Under the pieces are notes generated by a model. That model ran no database searches. It was not told the DNA's origin and worked only from the letters and a program-made list of their open reading frames with translations. Made by a program: the position numbers and the translations under genes. A DNA stretch of 64,000 nt from contig NZ_JACJQB010000001.1 in assembly GCF_014696385.1 (NCBI RefSeq), positions 186,001-250,000 of the forward strand. The letters run 5' to 3'. The DNA comes from Pseudanabaena mucicola FACHB-723. Its GTDB lineage: Bacteria > Cyanobacteriota > Cyanobacteriia > Pseudanabaenales > Pseudanabaenaceae. Below, in pieces: positions 6,821-16,196 of this stretch (its first letter is position 1; the number at the start of each line of letters is the position of its first letter).

Positions 6821-8863
6821 GGCGGAAACAACCTGACTGACTAATTTTTCGGGAACTTCCTGCAAGCGATCAAAGGTTTTACTGAAGAAGCCCACACCCA
6901 TGGTTTGCGATCGCAATTCGAGGATTAAACTCTGCATCTCCATTTCAGGAATATATGCCGAAACCTTATCCCAACGTTGCCAGCCAGCTTTGGACTCATA
7001 GCCGAGAATCTGTCCGCGCCGACCGCTTACCAAACGCAAGGCACTGGATGTATATTCTGTGGGAATCGAAATTTCTACAAGATTGATCGGTTCAAGGAGA
7101 ATTGGCTCACAGGTAGCCATACCCTCTTGCATCGCCAGTCTTGCCGCCTGTTTAAAAGCTTGCTCAGAGCTATCAACGGAATGATAGGAACCATTAGTCA
7201 AAGTGACCGCAATATCGACAATGGGAAACCCTAAGATGCCTTTATGCAAATATTCGCGGACACCTGTCTCGACACCCGCAATATATTGGCGTGGCACAAC
7301 GCCACCAACAATCGTTTCCGCAAATTTAAAGCCTTCACCCCTTGGCAATGGTTGAATATCGAGATAAACATCCCCAAACTGTCCATGTCCGCCCGATTGG
7401 TGCTTATAGCGACCGTGGGAATTGGTGGATTTGCGGATAGTTTCTTTGTAGAGAATTTGGGGTGCATGTTGGCTAATTGGTAAGTTATATTTGCGCCGCA
7501 TTCGATCAAGGGCAACTTGTAAATGGATTTCGCCCTGTCCCAAGAGCACAATTTCATGGGTTTCCGTGCGTTGCTCCCACCGCAGGGCAGGATCTTCTTC
7601 ACAGAGCTTGTTGAGAACGTTGCTGAGTTTCACTTCGTCATTACGCTTTTCGGCAGCAATTGCCCAAGCAAATACTGGCTCTAGGGAATTTGCGATCGCA
7701 AGTGGCTCAATATTTTGTCCTGTGGTCAAGGTATCGCCAGTTTTTGCACCTTCCAATCGCGCAACTGCCACAATATCGCCCGCCTCGGCGCTGGTGATGG
7801 GCTGCTGTTGCCCACCCATGAGTCGATACAAGCCGCCAATACGACTACCATTCAGTACCGTGCCATCGGTGAGCTTGCCGAGCCACAGACGTACCAGTGA
7901 GAGCTTGCCACCCTGTGGTGTGTAGTAAGTCTTCAGGACTTGGGCGACAGGCGCAGCAGCATCAGTGGGTACATAACTAGCAAGTTGCTGACGGTGGGCG
8001 ATTGTGGCTTCAGGTTGAGGAGATTCGATCACCAAGGCTTTGAGCAATGGACGCACCCCAAAATCTTGCTCAGCAACCCCAAAAAAGACTGGTACAATCT
8101 GGTCTTCGCTCAGTTCCTTTTGCAAATCGGCAAGCACTTCTGCTTGGGAAGGCTTAATTTCCGTCAGCAATTCTTCTAAGAGATGATCATCAAAATCGGC
8201 AATGGTTTCTAGCATGGCTTCCCGTTCCACCTGTTCCTGTGCTGCCAGTTCCTCGGATAAGGCGATCGCATCGGGAGCAGCATTGACGTGATATTGATAG
8301 GCTTGCTCGGTTACGAGGTCAATAAAACCAATCAAGTCGTTGCCAGAGCTAATCGGATATTGTTGGGCGACAAGGGGACGACTAGAGACGGTTTTGAGAG
8401 CTGCCAATTGCGATCGCAAAGCTTGGGCATGGTTGGTATCCCCAGTCAGCCGATCCATTTTGTTGATAAAAATCAGGTGGGGAATTTTCCAGTCGTCAAG
8501 GAATTTTAGTAATGGGGCAATTGTATTGACGCGATCTCCATTTGGTTCACAGACCACAATCGCCAAATCCACCCCCATCAGTGCATGATAGGTTTCTTGG
8601 AGAAATTCCACCGAACCAGGGCAATCAATCAAATTGAAGTGAATTCCTTCATAATCGATGCTGGCAACATTTACCTCCACACTCATACTGCGATCGCGAG
8701 CTTCGGTGGAACTATCCCCCACTGTGTTTTTATCGGTTACTTTACCCTTGCGAGAGATAGTCTTGGTTACGAAGAGAAGACTTTCTAAAAGTGTCGTTTT
8801 CCCGCTCAGATAAGAACCGACTAAAGCAATGTTACGTGTACTAGAAGTCTGCTTACTATTCAT
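6815..8863 (-). CDS. Elongation factor G-like translational GTPase
   Basis: A 682-residue EF-G paralogue. The GTPase domain has a P-loop (GSYLSGKTT), the G3 motif DCPGSVEF and the G4 motif INKMDR. EF-G domains II to V follow, including the domain IV region SGGHGQFGDVYLDIQPL. In G3, the catalytic histidine of canonical EF-G (DTPGH) is replaced by serine. This suggests altered GTP hydrolysis and fits the EF-G-like (EF-G2) group, whose role is not settled. It is slightly shorter than canonical EF-G (about 690-700 residues). It stands alone, not in the str ribosomal operon, so it is unlikely to be the main fusA. Confidence 0.85.
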   Translation of the reverse strand: MNSKQTSSTRNIALVGSYLSGKTTLLESLLFVTKTISRKGKVTDKNTVGDSSTEARDRSMSVEVNVASIDYEGIHFNLIDCPGSVEFLQETYHALMGVDLAIVVCEPNGDRVNTIAPLLKFLDDWKIPHLIFINKMDRLTGDTNHAQALRSQLAALKTVSSRPLVAQQYPISSGNDLIGFIDLVTEQAYQYHVNAAPDAIALSEELAAQEQVEREAMLETIADFDDHLLEELLTEIKPSQAEVLADLQKELSEDQIVPVFFGVAEQDFGVRPLLKALVIESPQPEATIAHRQQLASYVPTDAAAPVAQVLKTYYTPQGGKLSLVRLWLGKLTDGTVLNGSRIGGLYRLMGGQQQPITSAEAGDIVAVARLEGAKTGDTLTTGQNIEPLAIANSLEPVFAWAIAAEKRNDEVKLSNVLNKLCEEDPALRWEQRTETHEIVLLGQGEIHLQVALDRMRRKYNLPISQHAPQILYKETIRKSTNSHGRYKHQSGGHGQFGDVYLDIQPLPRGEGFKFAETIVGGVVPRQYIAGVETGVREYLHKGILGFPIVDIAVTLTNGSYHSVDSSEQAFKQAARLAMQEGMATCEPILLEPINLVEISIPTEYTSSALRLVSGRRGQILGYESKAGWQRWDKVSAYIPEMEMQSLILELRSQTMGVGFFSKTFDRLQEVPEKLVSQVVSAS

Positions 8864-10372: not shown

Positions 10373-11005
10373 ATGTCTATTAACAATATTGAGATTCGTT
10401 TGCTTCTAAATCTATGGGATTTGGGGGCAGGTCAGGGCATGGTGAATAAGGGCAAGGTCTTACCGTCTTTTAGTGGTAAGGATAAGGATGTCAAGAAAGC
10501 TGAGTATAAAAATGCTTTGCAAGCTTTGATCGATGGTGGGGCGATCACTGCGTCTACTAAGTATTCACTGACGGATGCGGGTTTGCAAAGTTTGGCTGAT
10601 GGGTTGCGATCGCCTGATTTTAGTTTTCAAGGGGCAACGTTAGTCAGCAGTCGTTTGGCTAATGCAGCTTTGCGATGGTTTCAGCAAAATTCGGGTGAGG
10701 TTGCGGATGTTGAGTCTGCGCCGAAGATCTTGTCTTACGATGAGTTTAAGGTTGTGGCTTTAGAAACTTACGATCAACTTAACCGTGATTACAACTTTGA
10801 TAATCTTGTCCCTATTTATCGGATTAGACGGGCGATCGGTGAGCGCGTCACTCGTACTCAGTTTAACGACTGGATGCTAGAAATGCAATCAAATGAAATT
10901 TTGCAACTTGTAACTGGTTTAGTTACAGACCTCACGCCAGACAAGGAAGAAGACTCGATCACGACCGAACTCGGCGGTTTGCGTTACTACGCCAAACTTT
11001 TGTAA
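10373..11005 (+). CDS. Winged-helix-like protein, first gene of three-gene set
   Basis: A 210-residue soluble protein with no family I can name. Residues about 1-75 look like a winged helix (EYKNALQALIDGGAITASTKYSLTDAGLQSL: helix, turn, helix, then a short hairpin). A second helix-turn-helix-like stretch is at about 140-195 (IYRIRRAIGERVTRTQFNDWM), followed by a short beta hairpin (LGGLRYYAKLL). It is probably a DNA-binding or adaptor subunit. It precedes an AAA-type ATPase by 57 bases and a PD-(D/E)XK nuclease, and the three are likely co-transcribed. A spaced upstream region (10131-10372) holds no other gene. Confidence 0.6.
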   Translation: MSINNIEIRLLLNLWDLGAGQGMVNKGKVLPSFSGKDKDVKKAEYKNALQALIDGGAITASTKYSLTDAGLQSLADGLRSPDFSFQGATLVSSRLANAALRWFQQNSGEVADVESAPKILSYDEFKVVALETYDQLNRDYNFDNLVPIYRIRRAIGERVTRTQFNDWMLEMQSNEILQLVTGLVTDLTPDKEEDSITTELGGLRYYAKLL

Positions 11006-11062
11006 ATGAATATTGCTCTGGGCTAATGTAGCCAAATAAAAAATAATTTAAAGAGGTTTGTA

Positions 11063-12994
11063 ATGTCTACAGCGTCATCTCTTGAGGAACTTAATGCGCT
11101 CATCAAGAAAAATAATCCATTCGACGTACCACCAATCATCACAGGGCAAGATATTTGGAATGGTAGTTTTCCCGATCTGACGACTTTAAATGCCCATGCT
11201 TCGGATGCCGTATTTGAGACAATTGAGCAAGTTCGTTCTGGTAAGCCTAAAGTAACATCTCTTGCCTTTAGTGCTGAAATTGGCGTTGGTAAAAGTCATT
11301 TAATTAGACGAATTCGCCGAGGATTACAAGCAGAAAACAAAGCTTTTTTTGTTTACGCTAACAAGTATGGTGATTTAAACCTGATTCATTATCAATTTCG
11401 CCAGATTCTAGCAGACAGTTTTAAGCAGTCTAATGGTCATGGCGTTACCCAATGGCAGGAATTAGCGGCGGCAATGGTTAACCAAGTTGTTGCTCAACAG
11501 AATACAGCATTGGATCTGGTCAAGAGGGTTCCTCAAGCACTGGGAAGAAATCATGATCTGATTGATAGACTTACCAATGCAATTCTCAACGTAAAGCCAA
11601 AAGTAAGCGATCCTGACATTGTTAGAGCAATTCTATGGACATTGGGAAGTTCTGCCCACGCACCTTTTGCGATTAGATGGCTTGCAGGTAAAGAGTTGGC
11701 TGACGCAAAAGCAAAAGAATTAGGACTACCCAACTCAACCAAGGAAATTAAACTCCTAGAAGCAGATGCGCTAAGTGCTTCTTTACAAATTATTAGTCTT
11801 GCTTCGGACTACAATCCTATTATGGTCTGTTTTGATGAGCTAGAAGGGTTAGAAGTCAATGAGTCTGGCTATTTTAAGTCGCAAGTTGTCGGAGGATTAG
11901 TCAAAGATTTGTTTGATGCTATCGAACAGTCTGATGTAACGAAAGGAGTAGTTATTTTATCTGTAATACCTCCTGCTGTTTTGCGAGACCTGTTTAAGGG
12001 AGCGTCTTTAATTGGAATAAGCGATAGGCTATCTTCAAAATATAAAGAACCTATTGAACTAAAGTATGCGGATGGTGAAACTGTTGTTAGGATTGTTGCT
12101 CTCTGGCTTCAGGATTTTTATCAGTCTCATAACCTTGTCCCTCCAACTCCTGTATTTCCTTTTGAAGAAGAGAAATTAAGATCTTTGGGCAATGAAAGAC
12201 CAACCATCAGACAACTATTAAAATGGTGTCGTGACAATTTTGTTATATCTGATGTAGTTATTGACCCTCAAGAGGTATTACAGAAAGCCTATGAGCGTGA
12301 AAAATCTATTCTTGAAAATGACAAAGAGAAAGACTGGCTGGATGACAGTGATCTGATCGCTAAGGCAATCTATCTAAGTCTAACAACACTAAAGGGACAG
12401 ACAGTTGAAAATGTTCTGATTACAGATGTTGAAGATAAAGTTAGACCACTAGCTGAAAACAAAGGCGCTCTGCAATTTAGAATTATTGCTGTTGAAGATG
12501 GAGTAGAACAACGGATCGGTGTAGGCGTAGTCCAGCAAACTCATGGCGGTACTGTATGGGCGAAACTGTGGCGCTTGGTTTCGTATGAAACTTTTAACCT
12601 AACAAGAGGTTGTTTGATTCGTTCACCAGAGCGACAATTCAAGAAGAAATGGGAAGCACTTACTTATTTAGGCTGGTTAGTTAATGATATGGGAGGAGAA
12701 TATGTTCATTTGAAAAATGAGGAAATTGAACCACTTTTAGCTATTCTGTTTGTCTATGATAAATATGAGACTTATGGAGTCAATCAAACTGATGTTTTAG
12801 AGTACATTACAAACTCTGGAATTGCCTTTAATAATCCATTGATTAGAGAGATTTTGAGCGATCCATCTAGTGTAATTACTGCCGAAGACATTGAATCTGA
12901 CTCCCCAGAAGACAAGCCAAAAATCGAAGAAAGTCCTGTATTTTTAGATATTACTGATGATAGCAGTATTGATCTAGAGAGTTTTCTAAGATGA
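11063..12994 (+). CDS. AAA-type ATPase, second gene of three-gene set
   Basis: A 643-residue ATPase. Walker A is GVGKSH at residues 74-79 (Lys77) and Walker B is IMVCFDELEG with Asp258-Glu259. A sensor-2-like stretch NERPTIRQLLKWCRDNF is near residue 380. This order resembles Orc/Cdc6-like AAA+ proteins found in defence and mobile loci. The C-terminal third (about 430-643) contains QFRIIAVEDGVEQRIGVGVV and a possible helix-turn-helix, and ends in an acidic tail. A ribosome-binding sequence (AAAGAGG) precedes the ATG. The gene lies between a winged-helix protein and a nuclease, so it may be the motor or sensor of that set. No known system name can be assigned. Confidence 0.65.
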   Translation: MSTASSLEELNALIKKNNPFDVPPIITGQDIWNGSFPDLTTLNAHASDAVFETIEQVRSGKPKVTSLAFSAEIGVGKSHLIRRIRRGLQAENKAFFVYANKYGDLNLIHYQFRQILADSFKQSNGHGVTQWQELAAAMVNQVVAQQNTALDLVKRVPQALGRNHDLIDRLTNAILNVKPKVSDPDIVRAILWTLGSSAHAPFAIRWLAGKELADAKAKELGLPNSTKEIKLLEADALSASLQIISLASDYNPIMVCFDELEGLEVNESGYFKSQVVGGLVKDLFDAIEQSDVTKGVVILSVIPPAVLRDLFKGASLIGISDRLSSKYKEPIELKYADGETVVRIVALWLQDFYQSHNLVPPTPVFPFEEEKLRSLGNERPTIRQLLKWCRDNFVISDVVIDPQEVLQKAYEREKSILENDKEKDWLDDSDLIAKAIYLSLTTLKGQTVENVLITDVEDKVRPLAENKGALQFRIIAVEDGVEQRIGVGVVQQTHGGTVWAKLWRLVSYETFNLTRGCLIRSPERQFKKKWEALTYLGWLVNDMGGEYVHLKNEEIEPLLAILFVYDKYETYGVNQTDVLEYITNSGIAFNNPLIREILSDPSSVITAEDIESDSPEDKPKIEESPVFLDITDDSSIDLESFLR

Positions 12995-13024
12995 TCAAAT
13001 ATATTTCTATTGTAGGAAATTAGC

Positions 13025-14407
13025 ATGGTATCTATTAATAACGCTCTAAGATTACCACAGAAAAACTTAGAGCTACTGGTGAATGGTAAATCTATCAACT
13101 GCTTATCTAAGACGTTTGTTGTAACTAATCGTTGTTTTGCACTCTATCCAGATATACAATCTCAAGAATTAGATTTTATAGATATTGATTACTGGGCAGA
13201 GTGTACAGATTGCAAAGCTATTGGTGAAGATTTCTCAATACCAAGATTGTCAAATTTAATAGGTATATCAATAGAAGAAATTACCGAAATTTTCCAGAAG
13301 CGCAAAAATATTTTCCTGACATCATTGCGAACTTATAAATTACCTAATTCATTACAAGTTGTATATCAATCCACAGGTAATTTTATACCTTTGTCAGAAA
13401 TAGTTAATATCAATGAACTGTTTTCTGTGATTAGTGATCATGATTTTAATAAACTTATAAATGAGACAAAAGAGCTAGAGCTAACTATTGTGCCAGAGTT
13501 TACTTTAGAAAGTGAAGACACAATCATTGATCAAAATGAAATTTTTTTGCAACTCAAAGAAGAATTTCTAAATAATAATGATGAAGATAAAACAAAAGAG
13601 ACAAAAAAAACTTGGCTCAATATCAAAGATCTAAGCTGGATAGAAGATATCTCTAAGTATGGCGATCGCAGTATTGAGACGGATACAGGTAGAAATAACT
13701 GGCAAGCAGGTACAGATTTTGAAAATATCGCAAAACAAAGCTTAGAATTTCTAGGTTTTACAATTGATGAGGCTCACAAAGGAGGCGCAGGGGGATTAGA
13801 TTTATTTTGTTCAAAGCCTTATCCATTAACAGGAGAATGCAAAGCAGGGAAAAGTGTTCCTAGTCGCACAACTGAAGAATTACTTAAGCTTGGAGGTATG
13901 AGATTAGGTAGAGAAAGATTTTTAGAATCTAAGAAACTAATTGTTGGTGCTGGTAAAGTCAGCAAAGATGTAATTACAGCCGCTCACGAATGGAAAGTAA
14001 GCATTATCAAAGCTATGACATTACAAAAACTCGTTGAACTCAAAGCTAAATATGATGGTGCGATCAATCTATTTGAACTCAAAGATTATTTGCAAGCAGG
14101 GCAAATTGACGACAAGATTGATGAGTATATCCAGAAAGTTGAAGGCAAAATTAAAATACGATCTCGGATTGTTCAAACAGTTAAGGAACTTCAAGATGCA
14201 GACTCTGAATATCCTAGCCCAATCGAAATTCGGACTCATTACAACGCTAGAAAACAAGGTGCTAACGTTAGTCTTGATTCCACTAAAGAAATTTTAATCG
14301 AGCTTTCTTCGCCATTGGCGGGATATTTGGGAAGAGATAAGGGTGCTGGCGGAAATTGCGATCGCTTTTACTACTTACGAGATTTACCATGTGATACACA
14401 AGACTAA
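13025..14407 (+). CDS. PD-(D/E)XK-type nuclease, third gene of three-gene set
   Basis: A 460-residue protein. The central part has a restriction-endonuclease-like core: WQAGTDFENIAKQSLEFLGF (helix), then GGLDLFCS with Asp259 and GECKAGK with Glu271 and Lys273, giving D-x11-E-x-K. This is the Mrr/PD-(D/E)XK metal site. Residues 1-200 are acidic and of unknown fold. The C-terminal 90 residues (IRSRIVQTVKELQDADSEYP to the end) look like a winged helix. It follows the ATPase gene by 30 bases. About 70 bases of its 3' end occur again at 15233-15303, beyond the toxin-antitoxin genes. DNA cleavage is inferred from the motif. Confidence 0.65.
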   Translation: MVSINNALRLPQKNLELLVNGKSINCLSKTFVVTNRCFALYPDIQSQELDFIDIDYWAECTDCKAIGEDFSIPRLSNLIGISIEEITEIFQKRKNIFLTSLRTYKLPNSLQVVYQSTGNFIPLSEIVNINELFSVISDHDFNKLINETKELELTIVPEFTLESEDTIIDQNEIFLQLKEEFLNNNDEDKTKETKKTWLNIKDLSWIEDISKYGDRSIETDTGRNNWQAGTDFENIAKQSLEFLGFTIDEAHKGGAGGLDLFCSKPYPLTGECKAGKSVPSRTTEELLKLGGMRLGRERFLESKKLIVGAGKVSKDVITAAHEWKVSIIKAMTLQKLVELKAKYDGAINLFELKDYLQAGQIDDKIDEYIQKVEGKIKIRSRIVQTVKELQDADSEYPSPIEIRTHYNARKQGANVSLDSTKEILIELSSPLAGYLGRDKGAGGNCDRFYYLRDLPCDTQD

Positions 14408-14468
14408 AATTTCATGTAAATCCAAGCATTTTCCGTTATAATGCAAATACTATGGATAGGTGAAGCCA

Positions 14469-14717
14469 ATGGTAACAGCAATTAAGCAAATAGGAACTGT
14501 GGGCAAAGATGGCAAAATTGAACTTTATACTCCAGAGTTAATAGAAGGTACAAAAGTTGAGGTGATTTTATTGGTTGATCATCAAGACGAAACGGAGTAT
14601 TTGCTCTCCAATGCTGCTAATGCCAAAAGATTATTAGAAGCGATCGCCAATGTAGAAAAGGGTGAAGGATTGGTAACGTTCTCGGCTGAAGAATGGCATG
14701 AGAAATATAGTATTTGA
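14469..14717 (+). CDS. Antitoxin of a YoeB-type pair
   Basis: An 82-residue protein whose beginning (AIKQIGTVGKDGKIELYTPELIEGTKVEVILL) is an AbrB/DUF104-like strand pattern. The C terminus is helical (AKRLLEAIANVEKGEGLVTF, EEWHEKYSI) and would bind the toxin. It overlaps the YoeB-like toxin gene by 20 bases, the usual arrangement. A GTG at 14460 could extend it by three residues; the ATG at 14469 has the better-spaced GATAGGTG. A TATAAT box at 14437-14442 lies about 26 bases before the start, within a short gap after the nuclease gene, so the pair probably has its own promoter. Confidence 0.75.
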   Translation: MVTAIKQIGTVGKDGKIELYTPELIEGTKVEVILLVDHQDETEYLLSNAANAKRLLEAIANVEKGEGLVTFSAEEWHEKYSI

Positions 14718-14937
14718 GCCGCAAGCGTTTCAGGATTTTAATAACTGGGCAAAGGAAGATAAGAAAGTTTACGGCAAAATTGTTGGCTTGATTGATGACA
14801 TCTTACGCAATCCTTTTAGTGGTATTGGTAAACCTGAGCCGCTTAAATATGAGTTAAAGGGATGTTGGTCAAGGAGAATTACTGATGAGCATCGCTTGGT
14901 TTATAGGATTAATGAAGATGCTCTGACAATTATTTAG
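14698..14937 (+). CDS. YoeB/Txe-family toxin, C-terminally truncated by a frameshift
   Basis: A 79-residue RelE-fold ribosome-dependent mRNA interferase that aligns along its length with E. coli YoeB. GKPEPLK (Glu47) and SRRITDEHRLVY (Arg66) keep two catalytic positions. The frame stops after ALTII. If one T of the TTT at 14933-14935 is ignored, the frame continues SCKFHYER and ends at 14962. This restores the terminal His-Tyr pair that YoeB needs for catalysis, in the exact register of E. coli's CRYHY end. As read, the toxin lacks these residues and is probably inactive. Sequencing error or slippage at the T run are the alternatives. Confidence 0.8.
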   Translation: MRNIVFEPQAFQDFNNWAKEDKKVYGKIVGLIDDILRNPFSGIGKPEPLKYELKGCWSRRITDEHRLVYRINEDALTII

Positions 14938-15001
14938 TTGTAAATTCCATTATGAAAGGTAGATCCTAATCAATGGATTCAATTTACAGGGAGAAAATAA
15001 A

Positions 15002-15232
15002 ATGAATAAATATCATGTATGCGGCTCAAATGAAATTCACAACGAACTGATTGATGAAATTTTCTATATTTCAGGCAAACCCGTTTTAGTCGAGCATATT
15101 CCCACAAAAGTTTGCAGTCAATGCGGAGAACAAACCTTTAGCCGCCAAACAACAGAACAAATTCGCCTAATGCTTCACAGCCAAGCAAAACCAGTTAGAG
15201 CGATCGCTATTGACGTTTTCTCATTAGCCTAA
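15002..15232 (+). CDS. YgiT-type zinc-finger antitoxin-like protein with a damaged metal site
   Basis: A 76-residue protein of the YgiT/MqsA N-terminal family (SGKPVLVEHIPTKVCSQCGEQTFSRQTTEQI). These domains bind zinc with two CxxC pairs. The second pair is Cys38 and Cys41. At the first, only Cys7 remains and the expected cysteine at position 4 is tyrosine (TAT, one base from TGT). The helix-turn-helix half of full MqsA is absent, as is usual for the short members. No toxin gene is next to it on this strand; the DUF4258 gene that often accompanies this family is on the other strand 350 bases away. Confidence 0.7.
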   Translation: MNKYHVCGSNEIHNELIDEIFYISGKPVLVEHIPTKVCSQCGEQTFSRQTTEQIRLMLHSQAKPVRAIAIDVFSLA

Positions 15233-15303
15233 GATATTTGGGAAGAGTTAAGGGTAATGGAGGAAATTGCGATCGCTTTTACTACTTGTGAGACTTACTG
15301 ATC
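15233..15303 (+). repeat. Second, diverged copy of the nuclease gene's 3' end
   Basis: These 71 bases match 14322-14392, the end of the PD-(D/E)XK nuclease gene, with about eight mismatches and no gaps; 26 bases around GCGATCGCTTTTACTACTT are identical. In the corresponding frame the copy reads YLGRVKGNGGNCDRFYYL and then a stop, against YLGRDKGAGGNCDRFYYL in the gene. The two copies bracket the three toxin-antitoxin genes at 14469-15232. The copy is therefore a remnant of a related nuclease gene and a sign of recombination. Confidence 0.8.
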
Positions 15304-15401: not shown

Positions 15402-15596
15402 TTAAGCAGCTAACATAGCAGCTACAGAATCCTTAGACATAAAGCGACGAAAATCCAGAATTTCAACTAGAACCAGCTTATCGTCTGGTGAATAATGCAA
15501 AATCACTTGACCATCTTCTTCTGCATAGGCGATCGCATCATTAGAGATTTCAATCAAGAGCGCATCAACATCTTTGCTATAGCTAATCTTTTTCAT
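15402..15596 (-). CDS. DUF2283 family protein, probable antitoxin
   Basis: A 64-residue protein with the DUF2283 pattern: ISYSKDVDALLIEISNDAIAYAEE, then a strand pair and LVEILDFRRF. This small beta-rich family is repeatedly paired with DUF4258 proteins. The gene overlaps the upstream DUF4258 gene by 14 bases on the same strand. The pair is regarded as a putative type II toxin-antitoxin module; the toxic activity has not been shown from this sequence. Confidence 0.75.
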   Translation of the reverse strand: MKKISYSKDVDALLIEISNDAIAYAEEDGQVILHYSPDDKLVLVEILDFRRFMSKDSVAAMLAA

Positions 15597-15843
15597 ATCT
15601 AGATCTCCTACCAGGATAAAGGGTGATAATTAAAATGAATGAGCCAAAATCTCGATAAACAACTCGAAGCACTAAACTTGGGTCTAGAGTTTGTTGCGCT
15701 ATCAGTTTATCTTCTTCTCCAGTTTCTAATTTATCTGGCGATCGCACTGTTTCAGTAACAAAATCGAGATCGATAATTACGCCACGACTTGCTAAAACAT
15801 TTATTTTTAATCGAGCGTGTTCGCTAAATCGAATTTCTTTCAT
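15583..15843 (-). CDS. DUF4258 family protein, probable toxin
   Basis: An 86-residue protein from the ATG at 15843 (97 residues from 15876). It has the DUF4258 start (MKEIRFSEHARLKINVLASRG) and the end VLRVVYRDFGSFILIITLYPGRR, which resembles the RelE/BrnT-like beta-sheet. A histidine and an arginine in FSEHARLKI are the best conserved positions of the family. It overlaps the DUF2283 gene by 14 bases and is the first gene of that pair. The start at 15843 fits the family better than the longer form. Confidence 0.7.
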   Translation of the reverse strand: MKEIRFSEHARLKINVLASRGVIIDLDFVTETVRSPDKLETGEEDKLIAQQTLDPSLVLRVVYRDFGSFILIITLYPGRRSRYEKD

Positions 15844-16196
15844 AAACTGTTGATAGCATGATTTTATTTTAACCACACTAGCTAGGCGATCGCTGGGGCA
15901 CTGGTCAGCTAATCGAGGATAAGCGCTGAAATGCCCATTTCATTCCGACAAAAAAGGCGCAAATACGTTGATCACACTTTAACTGTCCAGTGCCGACATT
16001 CATAAAAAAACGAATAAATGGTGTCTGGGCGATCGTCCTCTATTTTCTCCAATAATTATTCACCACTACCCATCACACTCACATTGCAAAACTTCTGAAC
16101 AGTTTGTCTGACGCTACGGTAGCTTTGCGCCACCACAAAAAGTAACTGCAATTACATTGCATGACTACAATTTTTTGGTTCTATTGTGTCAAAATG
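15844..16196. other. Intergenic region before ribF
   Basis: About 350 bases without a gene. It holds an imperfect inverted repeat, GGCACTGG at 15897-15904 and CCAGTGCC at 15987-15994, about 80 bases apart. I see no transposase fragment or RNA gene that explains it. Confidence 0.4.

Follow-up and report, generated by a model that had tools for sequence, protein, structure and literature searches.

The window described here, 64,000 nt of the Pseudanabaena mucicola FACHB-723 genome (contig NZ_JACJQB010000001.1, positions 186,001 to 250,000), carries a three-gene operon, A-B-C, that encodes a probable winged-helix protein, an AAA+ ATPase and a predicted PD-(D/E)XK nuclease, and that heads an array of toxin-antitoxin genes bounded by copies of the 3' end of gene C, the nuclease gene. 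The array resembles an integron, but both an integron integrase next to it and an integron-type site are lacking.

The array begins within the nuclease gene

The segment at 14322-14387, at the 3' end of gene C, has a second copy at 15233-15298 (89% identity over 66 nt), a feature absent from the initial annotation of this region. This main locus of the window contains two repeats and one cassette, composed of a YefM/YoeB pair and an MqsA-like gene. Among relatives, the final residues of gene C match many short stretches 3' of the gene that are not open reading frames (ORFs). The features are:

10373-11005, + strand: gene A, 210 aa, probable winged helix, with a conserved C-terminal 'VPIYRIRRxIGDRVTRxQFNDW' region
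11063-12994, + strand: gene B, 643 aa AAA+ ATPase; Walker A K77, Walker B D258/E259; predicted fold of the TnsC or ORC-Cdc6 kind
13025-14407, + strand: gene C, 460 aa nuclease; DUF1802 ASCH/PUA-like N-terminus, PD-(D/E)XK FokI/Mrr-like core, C-terminal winged helix
D259, E271, K273 of gene C: catalytic residues in the PD-(D/E)XK core
14322-14357, + strand: left arm of repeat 1, coding, within gene C
14358-14388, + strand: core of repeat 1, GCGATCGCTTTTACTACTTACGAGATTTACC, encoding DRFYYLRDLP of gene C; its left part is the probable exchange point
14389-15232, + strand: cassette 1, toxin-antitoxin genes, starting within the last codons of gene C
14460-14717, + strand: YefM/Phd-like antitoxin of cassette 1; homologues begin at the ATG at 14469
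14698-14937, + strand: YoeB toxin of cassette 1 (E 1e-31)
15002-15232, + strand: MqsA-like antitoxin gene of cassette 1, its end abutting repeat 2 exactly
15233-15268, + strand: left arm of repeat 2, non-coding
15269-15299, + strand: core of repeat 2, non-coding

The tail of gene C in the window, 'CDTQD' and the stop codon, is DNA of the YefM/YoeB cassette, because the same start sequence heads internal cassettes at two other loci (L042, L048). The toxin-antitoxin genes beside the operon are, on the evidence of these repeats, not incidental neighbours: they make up a cassette flanked by copies of the gene C 3' end, the first in an exchangeable array. Past the last repeat and outside the cassette pattern, the - strand carries a DUF2283 gene and, overlapping it, a small gene (15402-15876). 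A second array in the same genome (G000), on contig 78 (L067, about 7784-8711 as oriented), has as its head, in place of the operon, an AAA_23 (SMC-like) protein and two further genes.

Cassettes are reshuffled among Pseudanabaena genomes

An iterated profile search found two to seven repeat copies in other Pseudanabaena arrays, all on the strand of gene C and spaced about 0.3-2.1 kb apart. Repeats are present in 24 of 26 Pseudanabaena genomes and are not scattered, occupying one place per genome except in G000 and G013, which have two. We catalogued 60 inter-repeat segments, among them recurring families with sharp borders: cassettes start immediately 3' of ...ACTTACC and run right up to GATATTTGGG. 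The same families recur at different positions, in different orders and in different species. Their genes encode DUF433/DUF5615, DUF4258, PIN (VapC), ParE, HepT/nucleotidyltransferase, YoeB and MqsA-like proteins; recurring cassettes are nearly all of toxin-antitoxin type, with two genes each, and nearly all lie in the direction of the repeat. Judged from their sequences, the arrays thus consist of exchangeable cassettes of one gene or one module separated by a shared site.

Genomes G023 and G025 have the same uvrC-adjacent locus and the same four distal cassettes and differ in the head and the proximal cassettes, a contrast consistent with change at the proximal end of the array. In arrays without the operon, the head is type I HsdS and HsdM, an Eco57I-BsuBI/PstI methylase-nuclease fusion, AAA_15 with DUF3226, AAA_21 or a UvrD-type helicase, and two of these arrays retain the first 112 residues of gene A. 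In the latter (L048, 2496-2840, and L074, 6330-6674, as oriented) this gene A start of about 112 residues lies upstream of an unrelated AAA_21 or helicase head gene, and may be a remnant of the operon or else an independent use of the domain.

Mapping the exchange point to the end of gene C

The breakpoint comparison was limited to recent exchanges, meaning pairs of repeats with nearly identical cassettes on one side. Where the right cassette is the same and the left differs, mismatch in the core is 0.055 (bootstrap 0.016-0.10) versus a background of 0.177, and mismatch in the left arm is 0.338 versus a background of 0.308. For pairs with the same left cassette and a different right one, mismatch is 0.162 in the arm and 0.132 in the core (near background). 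The switch falls between repeat positions about 49 and 64, corresponding to GCGATCGCTTTT, within the last codons of gene C. Repeats in Nostoc start at GCGATCGC, with unrelated DNA on the left of this start, an independent placement of the same point. The sequence GCGATCGC contains both GATC and CGATCG, which are methylation sites in cyanobacteria (PMC4390886).

These alignments indicate exchange at a fixed point in a core of ~31 bp (GCGATCGCTTTT...GAGACTTACC), which in gene C forms part of the coding sequence, and an exchangeable unit made up of the core, the cassette genes and the left arm. Because the point lies inside the last codons of gene C, each cassette insertion rewrites the last ~10 codons, and with them the C-terminus, of the nuclease. 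Linkage by cassette family was a weak test, in which the left part of the repeat seemed to follow the left cassette, and a broader grouping of cassettes also gave a weak signal. Cores are no more similar within one array than between arrays, and therefore reassort freely.

Non-coding cores carry a coding-like pattern of change. In 70 non-coding downstream cores, we counted 102 synonymous and 23 non-synonymous changes from the consensus in the gene C frame, compared with an expected synonymous share of 0.20-0.33; among the changes are Leu and Arg swaps at the first codon position. For the left arm and spacer, the counts are 51 synonymous and 226 non-synonymous, a neutral share. These counts must be tempered by the relatedness of the repeats to each other, which means that they are not independent events, and by distinct variants the contrast is smaller, 13/30 for the core versus 14/76 for arm and spacer. 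Exchange at the left edge of the core would push the formerly coding core downstream with each insertion.

Gene C ends recur downstream in other cyanobacteria

For each of 72 operon loci we asked whether the locus's own gene C 3' end recurs downstream, using other 160 nt tiles of the operon as controls. It does so in 29 of the 72, on the + strand every time; the control tiles gave 29 hits in 1779 tests, every one from a group of six loci whose operon genes are duplicated or displaced. After exclusion of three loci that have a second C gene and of two whose match is short and outside the core, the lineages that have repeats of their own sequence include Nostoc, Symplocastrum (four downstream copies), Leptolyngbya (two) and Coleofasciculaceae; 3'-end matches at L114, L123, L134 and L150 are single and weak. 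Modules in Nostoc hold other gene pairs than those in Pseudanabaena, often on the opposite strand, and a single-copy site (L095) aligns to both junctions of occupied Nostoc sites. Six Nostoc loci (L089, L091, L094, L102, L111, L140) share a recurring two-gene cargo of ~105 aa and ~120 aa proteins with zero Pfam matches, the larger of which, as read from its sequence, resembles a retroviral-type aspartyl protease. The exact 29 nt core pattern occurs at 52 places in 26 of the 242 genomes of the class, essentially all of them in arrays or gene C ends.

A conserved operon and its predicted proteins

The conservation scan compared a gene A alignment with 84,980 species genomes and returned 79 loci, every one of them in cyanobacteria, with host genera that include Pseudanabaena, Nostoc, Calothrix, Leptolyngbya, Planktothrix and Oscillatoria. 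The order A-B-C on one strand with short gaps is kept in 75 of the 79, a co-occurrence far above chance; therefore A-B-C is a real, conserved operon of cyanobacteria. This neighbourhood survey bears out the proposal of the initial annotation that the genes are encoded together, and the ORF coordinates agree with its account of three genes in the same direction (all on the + strand) spaced by 57 and 30 bases, between a divergent NurA gene on the left and YoeB-type toxin-antitoxin genes on the right. Gene C was matched in 45 of 145 relatives, part of these matches being merely repeat copies. Three loci (L121, L126, L130) carry a second complete C gene directly after the operon, a paralogous nuclease pair. 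A search by tblastn for gene B in 72,556 plasmid and 50,697 phage records gave zero matches, and a phage or plasmid origin of gene B was rejected on that basis.

The product of gene A has zero Pfam matches. Its earlier description as a winged-helix protein stands as a probable one: the best matches in a profile search are the winged-helix proteins eS10 and RIO2, at a weak E of about 0.02-0.1. For gene B, the Walker residues previously read from the sequence are conserved in 27 homologues, with Walker A (G74-x-G76-K77) and Asp258 invariant and Glu259 at least 90% conserved. Its Pfam matches are AAA_16 and AAA_22. The structure model (predicted local distance difference test, pLDDT, 85) places the AAA+ domain closest to TnsC (7mcs; Z 14.6, root-mean-square deviation 4.6 Å, 262 aligned), followed by archaeal Cdc6/ORC (the latter the origin recognition complex), tied with TnsC at Z 14.2, and BrxC at Z 12.8.

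The nuclease motif proposed for gene C also holds, with Asp259 invariant among 31 homologues and with conservation of at least 90% for Glu271 and Lys273. DUF1802 is matched in 29 of the 31, and in the window protein with E 8e-12; Mrr_cat is matched in 15 of the 31. Structure prediction (pLDDT 84) gives the expected nuclease fold, with a domain closest to FokI and BspD6I (Z about 14-15), preceded by an ASCH/PUA-like N-terminus and followed by a winged helix at the C-terminus; the repeat core encodes the last strand of this winged helix. The conserved D...E-x-K motif and the modelled fold support identification of gene C as a PD-(D/E)XK nuclease. The homologue at L064 has lost the catalytic E-x-K motif, so some gene C members may be inactive. 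Stand-alone DUF1802-type proteins (~195-236 aa) occur beside or instead of the nuclease fusion in G075, G138, G152, G157, G176 and G210.

TnsA, TnsC and TniB are absent from the Pfam matches, with no TnsA in the 31 gene C members, and no transposase profile, nor a TnsB-type DDE transposase, was found in the three operon genes. The resemblance of modelled C and B to TnsA and TnsC is a lead only, since sequence profiles do not support membership. Among the fold matches listed there was no single full-length relative of B or C, an absence that is not evidence in itself.

Comparison with known systems

The closest parallels are with integrons, superintegrons and clusters of attC sites lacking integron integrases (CALIN): like these, the arrays hold promiscuous small cassettes, many of them toxin-antitoxin modules in mostly one orientation, that share a site and are reshuffled between species, and as in CALIN they sometimes lack head machinery. 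Unlike the integron site, which lies beside a machinery gene, the repeat forms part of the coding sequence at the 3' end of a nuclease gene. Integron integrases (TIGR02249 over cut-off) are encoded in 13 of the 26 Pseudanabaena genomes, far from the arrays, and none above the TIGR02249 cut-off is found in array-bearing G000, G008, G012, G015, G016 or G022. No conserved attC-like fold was detected, RNAalifold on 21 repeats giving 2 pairs at -0.39 kcal/mol and no covariation. Membership among integrons was rejected for lack of an integrase next to the array and of a foldable attC.

The modelled AAA+ fold of gene B resembles Tn7 TnsC, on a par with ORC/Cdc6. TnsA combines a nuclease domain of restriction-like fold with a winged helix at its C-terminus, and the gene C model resembles this architecture. 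Unlike Tn7, the operon has no TnsB-type transposase, and the exchange would be conservative, at the core, and not transposition. Many genomic islands use tRNA gene ends as attachment sites, and like them these cassettes enter at the 3' end of a gene that the incoming DNA restores; the differences are a protein-coding target and tandem, integrase-free cassettes of about 1 kb or less. The pdif/dif modules, which exploit XerCD, are likewise small toxin-antitoxin units bounded by short recombination sites, whereas here the site is about 31-66 bp, coding and in direct orientation, a nuclease operon is the head, and no dif-like sequence was seen.

An ASCH/PUA-type domain, an Mrr/FokI-like nuclease and an AAA+ partner recall Type IV or Mrr-like modification-dependent restriction, from which the operon differs by its attached cassette array and by the lack of a PADLOC match to the window proteins. 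The PADLOC 2023 profiles gave zero matches to these proteins, and scattered weak hits only to homologues; known defence systems were rejected as the operon's identity on this ground, in agreement with the initial annotation, which could not match the set to Gabija, BREX, Dnd/Dpt, Wadjet or a standard restriction system. The defence role it suggested is possible, because gene C has an ASCH-like domain and known restriction systems or other defence-type genes head operon-less arrays; outside Pseudanabaena, housekeeping genes are frequent neighbours of the operon. Neither such arrays nor a function for DUF1802 is described in the literature searched, with subscription papers and preprints outside its scope.

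Which machinery performs the exchange

We put the chance that the operon's own proteins perform the exchange, with the operon heading a cassette platform, at about even. A more specific proposal, held tentatively at a little below an even chance, is a capture platform unrelated to integrons, in which a complex of a winged-helix protein, a TnsC-like ATPase and a FokI-like nuclease exchanges cassettes site-specifically at a core that is part of the coding end of the nuclease itself, each captured toxin-antitoxin or defence cassette supplying the last residues of the enzyme. C, with its FokI-like nuclease and winged helix, would cut or nick the core, on the chromosome as well as in a cassette of circular or linear form. 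Pairing or licensing of the sites would fall to B, as a TnsC/ORC-type AAA+ protein, and to A, as a probable winged helix, and their joining to host repair or strand exchange. Placing the site inside the coding end of the nuclease would tie an intact array head to an active enzyme, and the cargo of toxin-antitoxin genes would, as in large integrons, make the array more stable. In favour of exchange driven by the operon, the core belongs to gene C in several independent lineages and almost nowhere else, and the predicted folds of A, B and C would suit a complex for DNA recognition, ATP hydrolysis and cutting.

Several observations weigh against exchange by A, B and C. The operon encodes no known strand-transfer enzyme, the best fold match of gene B is tied with ORC/Cdc6 and BrxC is close, and the architecture predicted for gene C would fit a restriction enzyme just as well. 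The best-conserved part of the repeat is also where RecA-dependent recombination would preferentially act. Many operons, including most outside Pseudanabaena, lack arrays, and 10 of the 24 array-bearing Pseudanabaena genomes lack gene B, so the array persists, and perhaps changes, without the operon. Operon-less arrays would parallel integron arrays without an integrase; the analogy equally allows the operon to be one of several head modules.

The main competitor, which we judge less likely, is that the operon is a modification-sensing, restriction-like defence system and the array a passive hot spot, at which strains would swap cassettes and whole defence systems by ordinary homologous recombination in the repeats after natural transformation. 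The junction in gene C of an ASCH/PUA-like domain with a FokI/Mrr-like nuclease fits this account, as do the ten array-bearing genomes without the operon, the known or likely defence genes that head operon-less arrays (HsdM/HsdS, the Eco57I-BsuBI/PstI fusion, AAA_15 with DUF3226), and the coincidence of the mapped exchange point with the best-conserved stretch of the repeat. However, repeats of just 66-83 bp at about 85% identity offer little length for homologous recombination to be efficient, the exchange point is narrowly confined and is the same in Nostoc despite left arms without similarity, and a hot spot gives no account of why the nuclease gene's own end serves in several lineages. We consider it improbable that a recombinase encoded elsewhere uses the gene C end as a safe attachment site, leaving the operon as a landing site only. 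Restoration of the gene end after insertion is a classic sign of an integrase attachment site, and tyrosine recombinases are encoded in 26 of 26 genomes and integron integrases in 13 of 26; but none was recognised in the cassettes or array heads examined, the integron integrases do not track the arrays, and by inspection the core lacks the usual arm-spacer-arm inverted repeat.

That the repeats are old debris, of a dispersed element or of a tandem duplication of the operon end, with toxin-antitoxin genes gathered by chance, seems to us very improbable. The second complete C genes in tandem at L121, L126 and L130 would suit it, but repetition is confined to the gene C 3' end, the repeats are not dispersed in genomes, the same cassettes occur in different orders across species with sharp borders, and non-coding cores keep their coding-like pattern of change. 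A dispersed repeat or repetitive extragenic palindromic (REP) element was rejected as the source, the copies being confined to arrays, as was tandem duplication of the operon as a general cause, which fits those three loci only.

Implications

Integrons are the standard bacterial platform for capturing gene cassettes. If the A-B-C operon drives its array, cyanobacteria would have a second capture platform, with different enzymes and a different kind of site, its attachment core located inside a nuclease gene. The exchange point is mapped narrowly enough for direct testing. Even if the operon is a landing site only, the arrays represent a new way to stock and swap toxin-antitoxin and defence modules.

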